NCBI GenBank assembly: GCA_944324685.1
Contig: CALUXG010000033.1
Span: 1 to 43,405 of the forward strand
DNA from: an uncultured Elusimicrobiales bacterium
GTDB lineage: Bacteria; Elusimicrobiota; Elusimicrobia; Elusimicrobiales; Elusimicrobiaceae
DNA length: 43,405 bases
Direction: 5' to 3'
Positions 185 to 37,569 of the stretch are shown here, piece by piece. A model generated the notes under the pieces. The model made no database searches and was not told the DNA's origin. It saw nothing but the letters and a program-made list of their open reading frames with translations. The number at the start of each line of letters is the position of its first letter. Positions within the stretch are counted from its first letter, which is position 1. A program made the position numbers and the translations under genes.

Positions 185-670
185 TTACCAGTTGTATCCC
201 TCTGCCCCTATTGAATTAGACACATTCGGTTCCTGCAAGCCGCTCAGCGAACGGCAAAGCCCGTGGCCCGAAGGCTCATTGACCCAGCAATTCATCTTTG
301 TACTGACAAAATATTTTTCCAACGATATTTCCGGCACTTTTTTGCTGGAACAATACAAAGAAACCGGCGTTGCGCCGTTGCCCATATGAATATAACATGA
401 AAAATCCGCATAGTACAGAGTTCCATGATTGCTGCCGAATGTTCCGCCGGCAGGCATGGAAATGTCCAAATTGTCAAAAGTGTCGGAATATGCGCCGTTG
501 GCCATATAATAACGCTTTTGCGCATCACAAATGCTGCGTATTAAAGGCATTAAGACAGCCGCACGGCTTCGTTTTACCGCTCTTTCATACTGCGGCAAAG
601 CCACAGCGGCCAATATACCAATGATTAAAACAACAACTAATAATTCAATCAGCGTAAATCCTTTTTTCAT
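185..670 (-). CDS. Type IV pilin-like protein (PilA/PilE class)
   Basis: 161 residues. The N-terminus MKKG|FTLIELL is a classic class III signal: a short basic leader, Gly before the prepilin peptidase cut, and Glu at mature position 5. A hydrophobic helix follows to about residue 25, then an LPQYERAV segment. The C-terminus carries a Cys pair with ten residues between (C-x10-CRSL), presumably the D-region disulfide and shared with the other pilins here. The protein should be held in the inner membrane, cleaved and methylated by PilD, and assembled into a pilus or pseudopilus. No assembly gene (pilB, pilC, pilD, pilQ) is in the window, so it is an orphan subunit. It has its own terminator and a conserved T-tract promoter (see 671-785). 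Pilin versus type II secretion pseudopilin cannot be settled from sequence. Confidence 0.9.
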   Translation of the reverse strand: MKKGFTLIELLVVVLIIGILAAVALPQYERAVKRSRAAVLMPLIRSICDAQKRYYMANGAYSDTFDNLDISMPAGGTFGSNHGTLYYADFSCYIHMGNGATPVSLYCSSKKVPEISLEKYFVSTKMNCWVNEPSGHGLCRSLSGLQEPNVSNSIGAEGYNW

Positions 671-13945: not shown

Positions 13946-14467
13946 TCAAGCTGATAAACAATCCAATCTCCGCTTGACGTTTGTTTTCCGCCCATGGACT
14001 GGCAAACCTGCTGGGCTGTTTTTAGAAGAATGCCGCGCCACACACTCCGTTACGCCCTCCAATCGTTTGTTTACGGAACAGGGAAAAGGAATTGGGTGAT
14101 AAGTAAAATATAAATGCCATCCCACCGTAACAGTAATCGTTGCATTGCCCCAATCACACCTCTCCATATAACTGAGAGTAAACTTAGAACTCTGAGGCAA
14201 TTCTATATCCAGCAGCGACAAATCCTCCGTATAGTGGCCGTTAGTCATATAATAGCGCGTCTGAGCGTCCGCCGTATTTCTAAGCAAAACCAAAGCTTGT
14301 ACAGCCTTGGATTTAAGCACGGCCGCTTCATATTTGGGCCATGCCACGGCCGCTATTATACCTATAATCAGCACCACCGCCAAAAGTTCCATCAGCGTAA
14401 AGCCGCCAAATCCGCCTTTGACGGAATTTTTACAAAGAACAGCGTTTTTTTGATAAATTTTGATCAT
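13946..14467 (-). CDS. Type IV pilin-like protein with an apparent C-terminal frameshift
   Basis: 173 residues from the ATG at 14467. Near residue 24 is G|FTLMELLAVVLIIGIIAAVAWPKYE, a prepilin peptidase site with Glu at +5. The leader of about 23 residues is unusually long. After TECVARHSSK the frame diverges from the family, while the frame one base away (13843-14043) reads KTAQQVCQSMGG, exactly the C-x(10-12)-C-x-S end seen in the other pilins. One extra A in the run of five A near 14022 would explain this. The corrected protein would run on to about 13843. It is either a frameshifted gene, a sequencing error, or phase-variable. There is no Shine-Dalgarno, and an 18-bp inverted repeat surrounds the ATG. 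A TTG at 14473 is an alternative start. Confidence 0.75.
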   Translation of the reverse strand: MIKIYQKNAVLCKNSVKGGFGGFTLMELLAVVLIIGIIAAVAWPKYEAAVLKSKAVQALVLLRNTADAQTRYYMTNGHYTEDLSLLDIELPQSSKFTLSYMERCDWGNATITVTVGWHLYFTYHPIPFPCSVNKRLEGVTECVARHSSKNSPAGLPVHGRKTNVKRRLDCLSA

Positions 14468-14488
14468 AGACAAAATTTATCAAAAAAA
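14445..14488. repeat. 18-bp inverted repeat enclosing a pilin start codon
   Basis: TTTTTTTGATAAATTTTG (14445-14462) and its perfect complement (14471-14488) are separated by 8 nt. The ATG of the minus-strand pilin (14465-14467) lies in that 8-nt loop. In mRNA the start codon would sit in the loop of an AT-rich hairpin. Confidence 0.85.
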
Positions 14489-22295: not shown

Positions 22296-22778
22296 ATGAA
22301 AGAAAAAATACACAAGACAAACGCCGCGCGCATTTTGGACGAACTCGGGCTGGCGTATGAACTGGTGGCTTATGAAACCAACGACGAAGACCTTTCCGCC
22401 GTCCATGCGGCCGCTTCCGTCGGTGAAAATATAGACCAAGTATACAAGACACTGGTACTTAAAGGGGATAAAACCGGTTATTTTGTCTGTGTCATAGGCG
22501 GAGCCAAAGAGCTGAATCTTAAAGCCGCCGCCCGCGCCAGCGGCAATAAAAGCTGTGAAATGCTGCACGTCAAAGATTTAGTGGCCGTTACCGGCTATAT
22601 GCGCGGCGGCTGCAGTCCTTTGGGAATGAAAAAACATTTTCCCGTTTTTGTGGATCAAGCCTGCCTGCAATGGGATTTCATCTATGTCAGCGCAGGCAAA
22701 CGCGGGCTTCAGCTGAAACTGCACCCGCAGGATTTGCTGAAAGCCGCCGCGGCCCACACCGCCGCGCTTACGGCATAA
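22296..22778 (+). CDS. ybaK: YbaK/EbsC-type Cys-tRNA(Pro) deacylase
   Basis: 160 residues. The family hydrolyses cysteine mistakenly attached to tRNA-Pro. Family marks are TNAARILDELGL at the start, the conserved Lys in YKTLVLKG, the hydrophobic core VIGGAKELNLK, and GYMRGGCSPLGMKK near the end of the active-site region. The length matches the stand-alone form rather than the ProRS-inserted INS domain. It is a single gene preceding the RDD-pilin gene by about 100 bp. Confidence 0.88.
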   Translation: MKEKIHKTNAARILDELGLAYELVAYETNDEDLSAVHAAASVGENIDQVYKTLVLKGDKTGYFVCVIGGAKELNLKAAARASGNKSCEMLHVKDLVAVTGYMRGGCSPLGMKKHFPVFVDQACLQWDFIYVSAGKRGLQLKLHPQDLLKAAAAHTAALTA

Positions 22779-22883
22779 AATTTGCGCCAAAGCGGATTAT
22801 GTTTGTTTTATTTCCCCGCTTCTGGCTTGCGCCGCGGCAGCCGTGTATTATACTATATAGTATTCCCGACGGAGGTAACAAAT

Positions 22884-23720
22884 ATGTATGCAAGCGTATG
22901 GAAACGTTTTTGGGCGTTTATGATTGATTTGGCGGTATTTATTCTGCTGTTTGTTGTTCTGGCCCAATTGCTTGACGACTTTACCGTTTCCGTTATCCTG
23001 CTGGTCATCATTTGGCTCTATTATGCTTTTATGGAAAGCTCCCCTTGGCAAGCCAGCTTGGGCAAACGGCTGATGGGCTTAAAAGTGGTGGACAAACGAG
23101 GGCGGCGGCTGACTTTTGCCAAAGCCAGCAAAAGACTGCTTTCTCGTTTGGTAACAAACTTAACGTTTTATATCGGTTTCTTTACGGCGGCTTTTGACAA
23201 GCATAAAGAAACCCTGCATGATAAAATGAGCCATAGCGTCGTGATTGCCAAAAACGCGGAATTTAATCCAAACGACTATGAAGAAGAACCCGCCCAACAT
23301 GATTTGACGCTGCTGACCGTCGCTTCCGTACTGGCGGCGCTGGTTTTTGTATTGCTTCTGCTGCGCTGGGTGGTGCTGCCCCAGTATCAAAAATTCGGCG
23401 ACCGCCTAAACGCCGCCCACATCACGGAAAATTTGAATTTGGCCGCACAGAACCGTCCCGCCCGTTTGGAAGCGGCGCGGGGAGGTCAAGAAGTATGGCT
23501 GAAAAGTTACAGCGGCTGCGTCAATAACGCCAAAGATCCGCAAACCTTGGATTGCAACGGCTACCGCATGACATTGAGACAAGACGGCATTTTTGCCGTC
23601 AGCCGGCTGGCAAATTGGCAGGAGTATACGTTGTTTAAGTCCTATGCAACAGGGAAAATTACCTGTGAGGCGAACGGGAAAGCCGCGCAAAAATTTTGCC
23701 GCAGTTTGGACCTGCCTTAA
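22884..23720 (+). CDS. RDD membrane protein fused to a pilin-like C-terminal domain
   Basis: 278 residues. Residues 1-125 form an RDD domain: helix 1 with R8 and D15, a second helix around 33-50, SPWQASLGKRLMGLKVVD, and a closing DKMSHSVVI. After an acidic linker, a helix at about 141-164 runs straight into VVLPQYQKF. The rest resembles the ectodomain of the pilins in this window: Cys at 212, 224, 261 and 272, with the last pair written C-x10-CRSL exactly as in the pilin at 185-670, whose equivalent helix ends in ALPQYERAV. There is no prepilin peptidase site, so the pilin-like part should stay fixed to the membrane by a normal helix. GGAGG lies 8 nt before the ATG. The domain reading is an inference from motifs, not a profile search. 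Confidence 0.75.
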   Translation: MYASVWKRFWAFMIDLAVFILLFVVLAQLLDDFTVSVILLVIIWLYYAFMESSPWQASLGKRLMGLKVVDKRGRRLTFAKASKRLLSRLVTNLTFYIGFFTAAFDKHKETLHDKMSHSVVIAKNAEFNPNDYEEEPAQHDLTLLTVASVLAALVFVLLLLRWVVLPQYQKFGDRLNAAHITENLNLAAQNRPARLEAARGGQEVWLKSYSGCVNNAKDPQTLDCNGYRMTLRQDGIFAVSRLANWQEYTLFKSYATGKITCEANGKAAQKFCRSLDLP

Positions 23721-23967
23721 CTTCTTGCTGCGGGCAACGGCTGGAAACCCTTGCCAAGTTGCCCCGTTTTTTCAAACGGCGCTTATCGCTGTCTTTGGAA
23801 AGGTCTCTTGTCCGCATATCACATGGGCGAGGTCTTGTACGCCGCGGCATACGGAGATTTTATTCGGACCGGTTATATTCAGCCTAACAATCACCCCCGC
23901 GCTTATAGCGCGGGGGTGATGAGTCTAGGGATAAAGCTCTCCATACAGGCCGTCGCAGCGAGATTCT
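23721..23967. other. Intergenic region between the RDD-pilin gene and the Cys-rich gene
   Basis: 247 bp without a supported gene. It holds the hairpin at 23891-23919. Short plus-strand frames are shadows or chance. Confidence 0.5.
23891..23919. terminator. Long GC hairpin between convergent genes
   Basis: A perfect 13-bp stem TCACCCCCGCGCT/AGCGCGGGGGTGA (23891-23903 with 23907-23919) with a 3-nt loop. The flanks are not T-rich on the plus strand (TGAGTC) and only TTGTTAGG on the minus strand, so intrinsic termination is plausible but not textbook. Confidence 0.55.
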
Positions 23968-25164
23968 TTATGGGCAGCAGACCACGGAACGCTGTCTAAA
24001 ACCCAAAGTCCAATTGACCTTATAAAACGTTCCTCTGCATGTTGCAGTTGGAAAACAGTAAAGTTTATTAAAAGGATACGGATAACTATAGCTCCTTAAA
24101 AACTTCAAGGAAAGGGTACAGCCGTTTGTAATCTTTGAGTAGGATTCGTTGGGAAATACATATTTTATACATCCTTCTTCAATGCCCCGAGCTACAAAAT
24201 CATTTTTCTCTGTATCCGTTAGGGTCGTATTCATGCAAAGCTTTGATCCTTGCTGTAGGCCATCGTCTCCCGTTTGCATACATACCATTGCAGGAATTCT
24301 AAAAAAGCTAGATCCTGTAGTATCAACATAAATATCCGTACACGCTTTTGAAGGAGAAGAAGCCTTTGTATAAATATTTCCATCGCAAGTATCGGCAGAG
24401 GCCCTGGGCTGAGCGGTAAGCTTTTCCGGAGTACCCTCTTTCAGCGTAGTACTGCGGGCGACGTCATTGCAGAGACGGGCCGATGTAACTCTACTGCAGG
24501 TATAGGCTATACTTGTATTGCCATTGCATGTATCTGTTACCATATTAGCCGTTACTTCCTGCCATTTGCCGTATGTTTTTTCGCATTTATCCGGCCCCTT
24601 GCAGGAATCAAAACCCAACACCTGCACGCTTTTTTTGTCATCGGTTGTGCGGGTTACCCACACCAGATTTTTGCACTGGCTCAATCCGCTGCTGGACGGC
24701 GGAGACACCCGCACGCCTCCCAAAGAAAAAGAAGCCGTTTCCGCTATTTGCAGTTCAGAGGCATTCAAATAATTGGTTTCTATTTCTGTCGCCGACGTGG
24801 TAATGTTGTTGATTCTGGACAAGGTAGAAGAAGAACGCGGTTTGGCAAAAGTCGCCACGCCGGTAATGCCAAAAAGTCTTGTCCGAAAATCCGTATCTTC
24901 CATGAGCCAGCTGGTACCTCTCAGCAGCCGGACATTAGGCAAAGTATAAGGAGTTGAAGCACTCTGCATAGTAACCGTACCGCCGGACTGAATGGTCAGC
25001 GCTTGGTTAATCAGATCCGCCTCCGTGGACAAACGGTCCGCCACTTTCAGCGTTTCATAACGTCCCAGACGTGCAGGATTAAACGAAACGCTTTCAATCG
25101 TCTCTGCCGTCAAAAACGGCACACAAAAAAACAAGCCCAAAACGGCCCTTAAAAAAATCTTCAT
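23968..25164 (-). CDS. Secreted Cys-rich protein of unknown function
   Basis: 398 residues; the family is not recognised. A signal peptide of about 20 residues is clear (MKIFLRAVLGLFF...FLTA, then ET). Residues about 25-170 are Ser/Thr-rich with a pattern suggesting beta strands. The C-terminal 230 residues contain 16 Cys, ending in a double Cys just before the stop (RSVVCCP), which suggests many disulfides outside the cytoplasm. GGAGG lies 7 nt before the ATG. Its upstream region has TTGACT and a nine-T tract like the pilin promoters, so it may be co-expressed with pilins, for example as a pilus-associated or adhesive protein; that is only an inference. It is a single gene. Confidence 0.75.
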   Translation of the reverse strand: MKIFLRAVLGLFFCVPFLTAETIESVSFNPARLGRYETLKVADRLSTEADLINQALTIQSGGTVTMQSASTPYTLPNVRLLRGTSWLMEDTDFRTRLFGITGVATFAKPRSSSTLSRINNITTSATEIETNYLNASELQIAETASFSLGGVRVSPPSSSGLSQCKNLVWVTRTTDDKKSVQVLGFDSCKGPDKCEKTYGKWQEVTANMVTDTCNGNTSIAYTCSRVTSARLCNDVARSTTLKEGTPEKLTAQPRASADTCDGNIYTKASSPSKACTDIYVDTTGSSFFRIPAMVCMQTGDDGLQQGSKLCMNTTLTDTEKNDFVARGIEEGCIKYVFPNESYSKITNGCTLSLKFLRSYSYPYPFNKLYCFPTATCRGTFYKVNWTLGFRQRSVVCCP

Positions 25165-28746: not shown

Positions 28747-28776
28747 AAAACTCCCCGCCGTTTAGCGGGGAGTTTT
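28747..28776. terminator. Bidirectional terminator
   Basis: A perfect 12-bp stem AAAACTCCCCGC/GCGGGGAGTTTT (28747-28758 with 28765-28776) with a 6-nt loop, between the SpoIID-like gene and a convergent pilin gene. Confidence 0.9.
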
Positions 28777-29323
28777 ATTTTACAAGCTGAAATGTACAAC
28801 CATATTGAATACTGCTATCTTCTCTCCAATAACAGGTTTTATCACCGGTAATACCCTGACACAACTCATGCCCCCTTTCTCCTCTTCCCACACAAGACAT
28901 CTGGTAATCATAACGACCTTGATAATCAGGCGCTATTTGGGCTGTAATTTGATACAGATCATTCCATCCGCCCGCGGACAAAGATAAAATCTTAGATTGT
29001 AAATGTGTTTGCACATGGGTAGAAATCGTATAATCCCCCATATCAAAACATTCCTGATCATAACTGGATTTTGAATGACAATTATTACCGGAAGTTACGG
29101 GAAAATCCAAATCTAAATTTGAAGGTTTTAATCCCGCGAAACTGTTTCCATTTTGCCAATAATAGATAAGCGCCGATTTACGTATAGCATCAAACACTGT
29201 AACCAGCTCCGAAACACGGGCTTTTTCCACTGTTTTTTCATACTGCGGCAAGGCAATGGCCGCCAAAATGCCAATAATCAGCACCACAACCAACAATTCA
29301 ATTAATGTAAATCCTTTTTTCAT
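28775..29323 (-). CDS. Type IV pilin-like protein
   Basis: 182 residues from the ATG at 29323. MKKG|FTLIELLVVVLIIGILAAIALPQYEKTVEKARVSEL is the canonical pilin N-terminus with Glu5. The ectodomain has more Cys than its paralogues: an internal NC...EC pair, the shared C-x10-C (SCVGRGERGHELC), and a further pair near the end (TC, GC). An in-frame ATG 12 bases upstream exists, but the spacing to the ribosome site matches the paralogues at 29323. It is a single gene with the conserved T-tract promoter and a strong terminator. The assembly machinery is not in the window. Confidence 0.9.
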   Translation of the reverse strand: MKKGFTLIELLVVVLIIGILAAIALPQYEKTVEKARVSELVTVFDAIRKSALIYYWQNGNSFAGLKPSNLDLDFPVTSGNNCHSKSSYDQECFDMGDYTISTHVQTHLQSKILSLSAGGWNDLYQITAQIAPDYQGRYDYQMSCVGRGERGHELCQGITGDKTCYWREDSSIQYGCTFQLVK

Positions 29324-29437
29324 TTTTTCTACCATAACAGCGTTTAATCATTCAAAAACACGTCTCAGCGGCGTTTATTTTTTCGTCATGTATAGGGTAT
29401 CAAAAAAAAAAAACGAGTCAAGACTGGGGCGGTTTTC
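29324..29437 (-). promoter_or_regulatory. Conserved T-tract pilin promoter and leader, copy 2
   Basis: Core 29387-29437: TTGACT reads at 29416-29421, twelve T at 29402-29413, TATACA at 29389-29394. It differs from copy 1 by one base across the 51-bp core. The leader shares the TGTTTTTGA and ATTAAACGCTGTTAT segments with copy 3. Confidence 0.7.
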
Positions 29438-33528: not shown

Positions 33529-34038
33529 CTAAAGATTGACGTCAGTCAACAGACCCATGGACTTGCAGATTTTCTTGGCGTTTTCGCTCTCGCCATAGCA
33601 GGCCAACGTGCGTTTGCTGTCCGATTTTCCGTACGGATTCCATATATAATACACGTCCCCGTCCAGACGTGCCGCCACCACACCGCCGCAATTGGTGGCG
33701 GGGATTTTGGCGTTTTGGGCGGCATTGAGACGGTAAGAAAAATATTCACTTCTTATTTCCGCCCCGTCTGAAGATATCTCGCCCGGGACTTCAATTAAAA
33801 GTTTATAAAACGCCGATGGACAGGCATTGCGCTCGGCCGCATACGTATATACGGCGTCATTGAGCGATTTAACCATATTCATGGCCTCTGTGGCGCGTGA
33901 TTTTTCTATGCTGCGCATATAATTGGGTATGGCCACCGACGCCAAAATGCCCAAAATCATTACCACCACCAACATTTCCACCAGCGTAAAACCGCCGACG
34001 CTTCCGCGCCGCAGCATACGGCATATATATTGTTTCAT
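33529..34038 (-). CDS. Type IV pilin-like protein coupled to dapL
   Basis: 169 residues from the ATG at 34038. The leader MKQYICRMLRRGSVGG ends at G|FTLVEMLVVVMILGILASVAIPNYMRSIEKSRATEAM, a variant N-terminus (VEM, IPNY) that differs from the LPQY type of the other four. The ectodomain ends C-x10-CKSMG, the shared disulfide pair. The start overlaps the dapL stop by ATGA, with AAGGAG 7 nt upstream, so it is translationally coupled to dapL. An ATG two codons earlier (34044) is too close to that ribosome site. It lacks the T-tract promoter, so it should follow dapF-dapL expression. Confidence 0.88.
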   Translation of the reverse strand: MKQYICRMLRRGSVGGFTLVEMLVVVMILGILASVAIPNYMRSIEKSRATEAMNMVKSLNDAVYTYAAERNACPSAFYKLLIEVPGEISSDGAEIRSEYFSYRLNAAQNAKIPATNCGGVVAARLDGDVYYIWNPYGKSDSKRTLACYGESENAKKICKSMGLLTDVNL

Positions 34039-35279
34039 AGACATTCTCCTTTGAATGGAAACTGCATAATGCGCTCGGCGGCTTGGCGCGTCAAATCCGG
34101 CGTATTAAAAGCCGTCAAGCGAAAAAATCCTTCCCCGCATTGGCCAAACCCGCTGCCCGGGGTACCGACGATTTGCAGCTTATCCAACATAAAATCAAAA
34201 AATTCCCATGAAGTCATGGCATTGGGCGTTTTGAGCCACACATAAGGAGAGTTTTCCCCGCCATATACGCAAAACCCCGCCCCGCGCAAAGCGCGCAAAA
34301 TAACTTGAGCATTGTTCAAATATCCGTCAATGGCTTCTCGGGTTTGTTTCTGTCCGTCGGGGCTGAACACGGCCTCGGCGCCGCGCTGCACAATATACGA
34401 TACACCGTTAAATTTGGTGCTTTGGCGGCGCAGCCACAAATCACGCACATGATGCACGGCCCCCTGAGCATCCTTGACCGTCAAATCTTTCGGCACCACG
34501 CAATACGCACAGCGCGTGCCGGTAAAACCGGCGGTTTTGGAAAATGAGCGGAACTCTACAGCGCAAGTTTTGGCGCCGGAAATTTCAAAAATACTTCGGG
34601 GCAGTTCCTTTTCTCGGATAAACGCCTCATACGCCGAATCATACAAAATAACGGCTTCATGCTCATTGGCCCAATCCACCCACCGCTGCAACGCCTGACG
34701 CGTCATGACCGCGCCGGTGGGATTGTTCGGCGAACATAAATACGCCAAATCCACCCTTTCCTGAGGAGGCAGCGGAGAAAAACCGTTCTTCTCCGTACAA
34801 GGCAAATAAACGATTTTGCTGAATTTTCCGCCGATAAAACCGCCGCTGCGGCCTGCCATGACATTGCTGTCCACATATACGGGATATACGGGATCCTGCA
34901 CCGCCACAACAGCTTGCTGCGAAAATACTTCCGCAAAGCAGGCCGTATCACTTTTGGCTCCGTCGCTGACGAAAATTTCGTCATCTTGTATGTCCACCCC
35001 GCGCGCACGGTAATCATGCTGCGCTATGGCCCGACGCAAAAACTCATATCCTTCATACGGTCCGTACCCGCGGAAAGTTTCCGCTCGGCCCATTTCGTCG
35101 CAAGCTTTTTTAAGCGCTTCCACCACGGCGGGAGCCAATGGACGGCTGACGTCGCCTATTCCCAAACTGATTACTTCCCGCTTTGGGCCGGAAGCTCGGT
35201 ATGCGGCGGCGCGGCGCACCACTTCCGCAAACAAATAACTTCCCTGCAAATTCAAATAATTTTCATTGATCCGCGTCAT
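34035..35279 (-). CDS. dapL: LL-diaminopimelate aminotransferase
   Basis: 414 residues, the family norm. DapL makes LL-diaminopimelate from tetrahydrodipicolinate and glutamate in one step, bypassing DapD/C/E. Fold-type I PLP motifs: SDGAKSDTACF near 100, CSPNNPTG near 175, and SFSKTAGFTGTRCAY near 247, whose Lys binds PLP. Continuous N-terminal INENYLNLQGSYLFAEV matches DapL. The ATG overlaps the dapF stop by 4 nt; an upstream in-frame start at 35354 would lie inside dapF. With dapF it supplies meso-diaminopimelate for cell wall and lysine. Confidence 0.92.
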   Translation of the reverse strand: MTRINENYLNLQGSYLFAEVVRRAAAYRASGPKREVISLGIGDVSRPLAPAVVEALKKACDEMGRAETFRGYGPYEGYEFLRRAIAQHDYRARGVDIQDDEIFVSDGAKSDTACFAEVFSQQAVVAVQDPVYPVYVDSNVMAGRSGGFIGGKFSKIVYLPCTEKNGFSPLPPQERVDLAYLCSPNNPTGAVMTRQALQRWVDWANEHEAVILYDSAYEAFIREKELPRSIFEISGAKTCAVEFRSFSKTAGFTGTRCAYCVVPKDLTVKDAQGAVHHVRDLWLRRQSTKFNGVSYIVQRGAEAVFSPDGQKQTREAIDGYLNNAQVILRALRGAGFCVYGGENSPYVWLKTPNAMTSWEFFDFMLDKLQIVGTPGSGFGQCGEGFFRLTAFNTPDLTRQAAERIMQFPFKGECL

Positions 35280-37113: not shown

Positions 37114-37569
37114 TTATTTCATGAGATAATACTTTGTTTGTCCGTCATAAGTATGAGAATATGTCCCATAGGTAGCGCAGACGTCATTGGCAGCTTTGTC
37201 ATCAACGGGCGCAAAACACCAGCGGTTTTTATTACCCACCAAAGAAAACTCAAAATAAGGCAAAGCCATGTCGAAATTTGCCGGCATAATTTGTATACGG
37301 ACATTGTTGTCTGTGTTCGTCCGAATAAAATACATATAATAATTCGAATTGGGAATGGTAATATCCAAGTCTTCCAAATTGGTGGTAAAAGTACCATTGG
37401 CCAAACGATATCGTTCCAAAGCCTGTTCCAGCGTTTTTCCGACCACCAAAGCTTCCGTTGCCCGGGCGCGCGCGACCGATTTTTGATATTGCGGCAAAGC
37501 GATAGCCGACAAAATACCGATAATTAACACAACCACCAATAATTCAATCAAAGTAAAACCTTTTCTCAT
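37114..37569 (-). CDS. Type IV pilin-like protein
   Basis: 151 residues. MRKG|FTLIELLVVVLIIGILSAIALPQYQKSVARARATEAL is the canonical N-terminus with Glu5. Only two Cys are in the ectodomain, in the shared position (C-x12-C, WCFAPVDDKAANDVC). It is the smallest of the five and ends TKYYLMK. It has the conserved T-tract promoter but no strong terminator was seen. It stands alone between uppS and lpxK. Confidence 0.92.
   Translation of the reverse strand: MRKGFTLIELLVVVLIIGILSAIALPQYQKSVARARATEALVVGKTLEQALERYRLANGTFTTNLEDLDITIPNSNYYMYFIRTNTDNNVRIQIMPANFDMALPYFEFSLVGNKNRWCFAPVDDKAANDVCATYGTYSHTYDGQTKYYLMK

Follow-up and report, generated by a model that had tools for sequence, protein, structure and literature searches.

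The usual mark of a type IV pilin is its cleaved leader peptide, and annotation relies on that motif to find pilins; two residues, F1 and E5, form the contact between neighbouring pilin subunits. Pilin bodies without the usual leader occur in GYF/DUF4190 proteins and in cyanobacterial Pilin_GH proteins with kinases, where the anchors are not RDD domains. CpaL of Caulobacter is described as a pilin module fused to a vWA domain and is proposed to be a sensor (PMC12607857). For the RDD family, one published account gives one conserved Arg and two conserved Asp, and reports a member from Halobacillus andaensis, of 178 amino acids (aa) with three predicted membrane segments, as a Na+(Li+,K+)/H+ antiporter (PMC5996927). 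In this study we analysed contig CALUXG010000033.1 of assembly GCA_944324685.1, from an uncultured Elusimicrobiales bacterium (the window; the whole 43,405-nucleotide stretch), and in particular an open reading frame (ORF) at 22884–23720 (+) that starts with ATG and encodes a 278-aa protein, P0001. We are nearly certain that P0001 is a pilin domain with an RDD module as its anchor; what computation shows is an RDD domain, a tail (residues 141–278) of pilin fold and ancestry, and no G-1|F1...E5 site. Both domains are of kinds already known, and their combination is undescribed as far as our literature search reached: in the literature searched, which omits most subscription journals, no description of an RDD-pilin architecture was found, and the RDD family and pilins appeared together only in one paper, as a co-mention of two unrelated terms. 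The initial annotation of this DNA, made from the sequence alone, likewise knew of none. The gene and the parts of its product are laid out as follows.

22871..22875 (+), putative ribosome-binding site GGAGG, 8 nt before the ATG (read from the sequence)
22884..23720 (+), RDD-pilin fusion protein P0001, 278 aa
22887..23231 (+), RDD domain, residues 2–116 (PF06271, E 1.1e-26; R8, D15 and D113 conserved in orthologues)
23259..23303 (+), acidic linker, residues 126–140 (read from the sequence; varies among orthologues)
23301..23450 (+), pilin-type alpha-1 helix, residues 140–189 (from models; first half is the membrane helix; lacks G-1, F1 and E5)
23376..23393 (+), LPQYQK, the pilin P22 region, residues 165–170 (P166-Q167-Y168 in 15/15 orthologues)
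23379..23717 (+), pilin head, residues 166–278 (Cys 212, 224, 261 and 272; from profile and structure comparisons)

The initial annotation had called residues 1–125 RDD-like, placed a helix at about 141–164 running into LPQYQK, and noted a C-x10-CRSL end. These readings held: the PF06271 match covers residues 2–116, the full-length model has a helix at 140–189 with LPQYQK at 165–170, and the C-terminus reads C261-x10-C272 followed by RSL. The RDD assignment is secure, with 94.2 bits against a PF06271 cut-off of 24.1 in the Pfam search. The one Arg and two Asp conserved in the family are represented by R8, D15 and D113, each present in 15/15 orthologues; these are presumably the residues that the RDD description intends.

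The pilin assignment of the tail was assessed with a profile of 32 canonical prepilins from this genome and the window. Each of the 15 orthologous tails matched this profile, with E from 7e-9 to 7.5e-4 (3.4e-5 for that of P0001), and all ranked above the best (E 0.34) of 165 controls, which comprised 15 reversed tails and 150 in which the helix was kept and the remainder shuffled. With the helix removed, the 15 tails still outranked all 165 controls, by weaker scores. Comparison of the tail profile with the pilin profile gave 98.2% at first and 97.7% in a second comparison (score 74.6, with 30 helix-kept shuffled controls at 54.1 or below); restricted to the head, it gave a weak 38.3% over 30 columns, while 100 column shuffles stayed at or below 1.1%. 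When 61 genomes were searched with the tail, 33 non-orthologous matches up to E 0.0274 were returned: 30 proteins with a prepilin-type motif, one other RDD-pilin, and two that resemble glutamine synthetase. On these comparisons the tail of P0001 is related in sequence to canonical pilins.

Structure prediction points the same way. The full-length AlphaFold2 model, built from seven sequences (the window protein and L033–L038), is confident in the tail and poor in the RDD part, and a tail-only model (mean predicted local distance difference test score 90.0; predicted template modelling score 0.78) consists of a 49-residue helix, a second short helix, six strands and a C-terminal helix. The predicted tail shows the hallmark of the pilin fold, a long N-terminal helix lying against an antiparallel sheet. 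When the tail model was compared with 994 aligned chains (VIA-align 2), the first 15 rows were all type IV pilins, including PilV (Z 8.3, root-mean-square deviation 2.9, 90 residues aligned) and full-length PAK pilin (Z 8.2, root-mean-square deviation 3.7, 116 aligned, model residues 5–139), and the first non-pilin chain had Z 5.4; with the full-length model, rows 1–12 were pilins. The initial annotation had named a fold unrelated to pilins, or a good match to another family, as what would refute its reading, and neither emerged: the best structural matches are pilins, and no other family was convincing on residues 140–278 in Pfam, NCBIfam or the sequences of solved structures, the best other Pfam match standing at E 0.0083, which falls short of its cut-off. 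Solved structures, searched by sequence, gave no match.

The architecture recurs. Of the 37 genomes examined from the genus, 15 have a full-length orthologue and three a head-less one, the absences being soft because the genomes are drafts; in a tree of the RDD domain the orthologues form one clade (support 100/100). The head-less proteins, L017, L018 and L020, belong to one subclade and end soon after LPQYQ, with the head lost and the RDD domain and helix kept, which points to an independent role for the RDD part. Some further RDD proteins of the genus carry plain pilin tails, for example L044 (GILTAIALPQYFSAVERARIVEARKYAQ) and L041 (GMIAAIAMPQFFRAVEKARLTEA). Six such paralogue tails matched the pilin profile at E 1e-14 to 1e-20, in a scoring that left out 11 rows in which the motif was not found and seven with tails under 60 residues; its shuffles kept the helix, and because several shuffled versions of the top paralogues also score, it does not by itself isolate the head. 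A profile of seven class B fusions from which P0001 was excluded (A4) matched P0001 at E 4.8e-32 over positions 2–250, and with its tail positions (about 157–302) it picked out short frames of the same genomes (E 1e-27 to 1e-34), two of which (G007:C8:105769 and G001:C48:18646) are the prepilins L139 and L145. The paralogue L039 was matched below cut-off by the NCBIfam ComGC, GspG and PilA models from model positions 8–18 on, that is, without the leader.

RDD-pilins with clear pilin tails also extend beyond the genus: L166 (E 3.5e-15) belongs to a different genus of the family, and L170 (E 1e-6) to a different family of the class. The survey of Elusimicrobiota RDD proteins that the initial annotation proposed returned the architecture repeatedly. 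The tails of class D, an order-wide RDD protein (L003 in this genome), gave 81.6% against pilins (score 36.6; controls at most 16.3), and class A and class D tails compared with each other gave 0.5%. The class D members L003, L059–L069, L073 and L075–L077 share a distantly pilin-like tail of the form G-x-YTxDL...KISAxAK. Class C proteins (L021–L026, L029, L030, L048 and L054–L058) have short tails ending CC..C..C and often stand two or three in tandem; as pilins these tails scored 23.9 over 10 columns, indistinguishable from controls at 20.3, and we make no claim for them. Another variant is L047 (G019:C44), a 516-aa frame with an RDD domain, a membrane helix and a tail of apparent ankyrin repeats, so RDD seems to anchor other domains as well. 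No RDD-pilin fusion was found outside Elusimicrobiota, where the search covered plasmids only; with the paralogue L039 it returned four plasmid records, each matching the RDD part alone.

What these proteins lack is the processing site. A prepilin site was found in 0 of 24 RDD-pilins examined (the 15 orthologues and nine paralogues), all 24 lack a Glu within the 22 residues preceding the helix-end proline, and G/A-x4-E strings occur in four, always inside the acidic linker. A class III leader is missing from P0001 too, with no match to PF07963 or TIGR02532. Counting back from P166 in the sequence, the F1 place falls on T145, -1 on L144 and +5 on V149. Most orthologues have (S/D/A)-(L/F)-T just before the expected site, one helical turn too early, which may be a relic of G-F-T or chance. 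The initial annotation's statement that P0001 has no prepilin peptidase site is therefore borne out, and extends to its orthologues and paralogues. Given this absence and the tie to the RDD bundle, the protein would be neither processed by prepilin peptidase nor admitted to a pilus.

Both parts of the protein appear to be constrained, to different degrees. P166-Q-Y and Cys 212, 224, 261 and 272 are each present in 15/15 orthologues, C261 and C272 forming a putative C-terminal disulfide loop. Against six close orthologues, the ratio of nonsynonymous to synonymous substitution rates (dN/dS) was 0.05–0.12 for the RDD domain and, in the four of six pairs where it could be computed, 0.07–0.23 for the head, values that are rough because synonymous changes are near saturation. 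Between two ortholog groups, identity is 67% in the RDD domain and 27% in the head. Judged from these comparisons, the head is apparently under purifying selection, and the picture is one of a fast-changing head on a steady RDD base.

We propose that the last membrane helix and C-terminal domain of this RDD inner-membrane protein would be a type IV pilin whose cleavage signal has been lost. The RDD bundle, of two or three helices, would keep the pilin domain in the membrane, without peptidase processing or polymerisation, and the head, a fixed recognition domain shaped like a pilin, would do its work where it sits, on the outer side of the inner membrane. Its docking partner might be a free pilin, the base of the pilus or a ligand, with the docking coupled to the RDD membrane module. 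We regard a non-polymerising, anchored head as probable, in keeping with the permanently anchored pilin-like domain that the initial annotation proposed for an RDD protein and that the fold, the profiles and the absent cleavage site support; docking or sensing coupled to RDD is the function that we put forward as the likeliest, tentatively and with the odds slightly against it. As possible functions the initial annotation had suggested a minor-pilin mimic, a pilus anchor or a receptor.

Several observations weigh against this proposal. Pfam and NCBIfam scans gave no pilin match for P0001 itself. In the reverse, helix-less test, in which the tail profile was run against 32 pilin heads, only five pilins scored above the best control, a weak result. 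A structural Z near 8 is possible without kinship, and Foldseek alone, while ranking full-length PAK pilin first, did so at E 0.04–0.06, so that the structural match alone suggests kinship without proving it. The RDD part of the full-length model is of low confidence, and the gene lies outside any pilus operon. Topology also enters here: two RDD segments plus the pilin helix would place the head outside, and three, the number predicted for the RDD protein that has been studied, would place it in the cytoplasm if the N-terminus is inside; the median net charge, +4 ahead of hydrophobic segment 3 and +1 behind it, does not settle the matter. An outside head is favoured by its four conserved cysteines and its pilin ancestry.

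Other explanations were weighed. One may postulate that at the assembly platform the head binds the pilus, growing or retracted, and either ties its base to the membrane or caps assembly. The retained pilin form and PQY, the wealth of pilins in these genomes (76 prepilin matches) and the closeness of class B paralogue tails to pilins of the same genus speak for such a pilus-base anchor or terminator; we nevertheless think it unlikely, as E5 and F1, through which neighbouring pilin subunits touch, are absent, the helix is one turn longer, the gene stands apart from pilus genes, and one subclade does without the head. It is similarly improbable that domain shuffling is the whole story, with abundant pilin genes supplying a generic exposed domain for uses unrelated to pili, such as shielding or regulating transport: RDD proteins of the genus do bear other tails (ankyrin-like in L047, class C, or none), and conservation is higher in the RDD core than in the head, but tails of pilin type turn up on several distinct RDD branches (classes A, B, D and E), more than a single accident would give, and the head appears to be under purifying selection. 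That the tail is no pilin, and a membrane helix with a small disulfide-rich domain merely looks like one, is very improbable, since chance resemblance is rejected by the scrambled and reversed controls and the helix-kept column shuffles, and although P0001's tail has no family match and a Z near 8 can arise by chance, the head-only controls, the 15/15 top structural rows, the 30/33 prepilin matches and the paralogous RDD fusions with undoubted pilin tails all stand against it.

Under the anchored-head proposal, a pilin body has been kept while its leader was replaced by a conserved multi-helix membrane protein, with selection probably keeping the head folded even though it has no way of leaving the membrane. 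RDD-pilins would then offer a concrete test of pilin roles other than polymerising, and counts of pilin domains based on the motif miss members such as these. Little is known of RDD family function, and P0001 gives RDD a partner domain that may point to the cell surface. A broader and quite doubtful extension is that RDD-pilins are widespread Elusimicrobiota tethered, non-polymerising pilins that hold or sense pilins at the inner membrane and signal to an RDD ion-transport module; if true, they would link pili to membrane physiology in a new way.

The genome containing the window (G000; 1.4 Mb, 49 contigs) has Candidatus Avelusimicrobium and uncultured Elusimicrobiales genomes as its closest named relatives. 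Its 76 prepilin-motif matches, five in the window and mostly scattered single genes, suggest a very large pilin repertoire, and its pilus toolkit, whose presence fits the anchored-head proposal, includes one prepilin peptidase, four secretion-type ATPases above cut-off and two secretins. The window prepilins used for comparison, and the upstream neighbour of P0001, are these.

185..670 (-), comparison prepilin (PF07963)
13946..14473 (-), comparison prepilin (just under the PF07963 cut-off)
22296..22778 (+), ybaK-like upstream neighbour (a homologue adjoins the orthologue in 8/14 loci)
28775..29335 (-), comparison prepilin (PF07963)
33529..34044 (-), comparison prepilin (PF07963, TIGR02532)
37114..37569 (-), comparison prepilin (PF07963)

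All five have GFTL(I/M/V)E, and P0001 has no prepilin motif. Two further likenesses claimed for these pilins were partly right. ALPQY(E/Q)K is exact in those at 28775 and 37114, and the others read LPQYER (185), IPNYMR (33529) and WPKYEA (13946); C-x(10-12)-C is present in all five, placed 11–31 residues before the end and not at it. The pilin at 28775 has a second Cys pair six residues from its end. The P0001 gene lies downstream of an apparent uvrA and the ybaK-like gene; uvrA, too, was seen in 8/14 loci, many flanks being short. Convergent to the RDD-pilin gene lies an ORF at 23968–25164 (-) for a Cys-rich, apparently secreted 398-aa protein, with a 41% relative at the same place in L033, and between the two convergent genes, at 23881–23930, is a perfect GC-rich inverted repeat (ATCACCCCCGCGC / GCGCGGGGGTGAT) without a T run.

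Set beside known systems, the tail of P0001 resembles type IV pilins (PAK pilin, 1oqw; Neisseria PilV, 5v23) in its long alpha-1 helix, P22 region, four-stranded type of sheet and C-terminal Cys pair; it differs from them in having no leader peptide and no G-1|F1...E5, in a helix one turn longer, and in its RDD anchor. Like the Halobacillus andaensis antiporter, P0001 is an inner-membrane protein whose RDD domain carries the Arg, Asp and Asp, whereas no added domain is mentioned for the antiporter (PMC5996927). With CpaL it shares a pilin module joined to another domain; in CpaL a potential prepilin peptidase site is kept and the vWA domain lies behind the pilin, whereas in P0001 the site is absent and RDD takes the place of the leader (PMC12607857).
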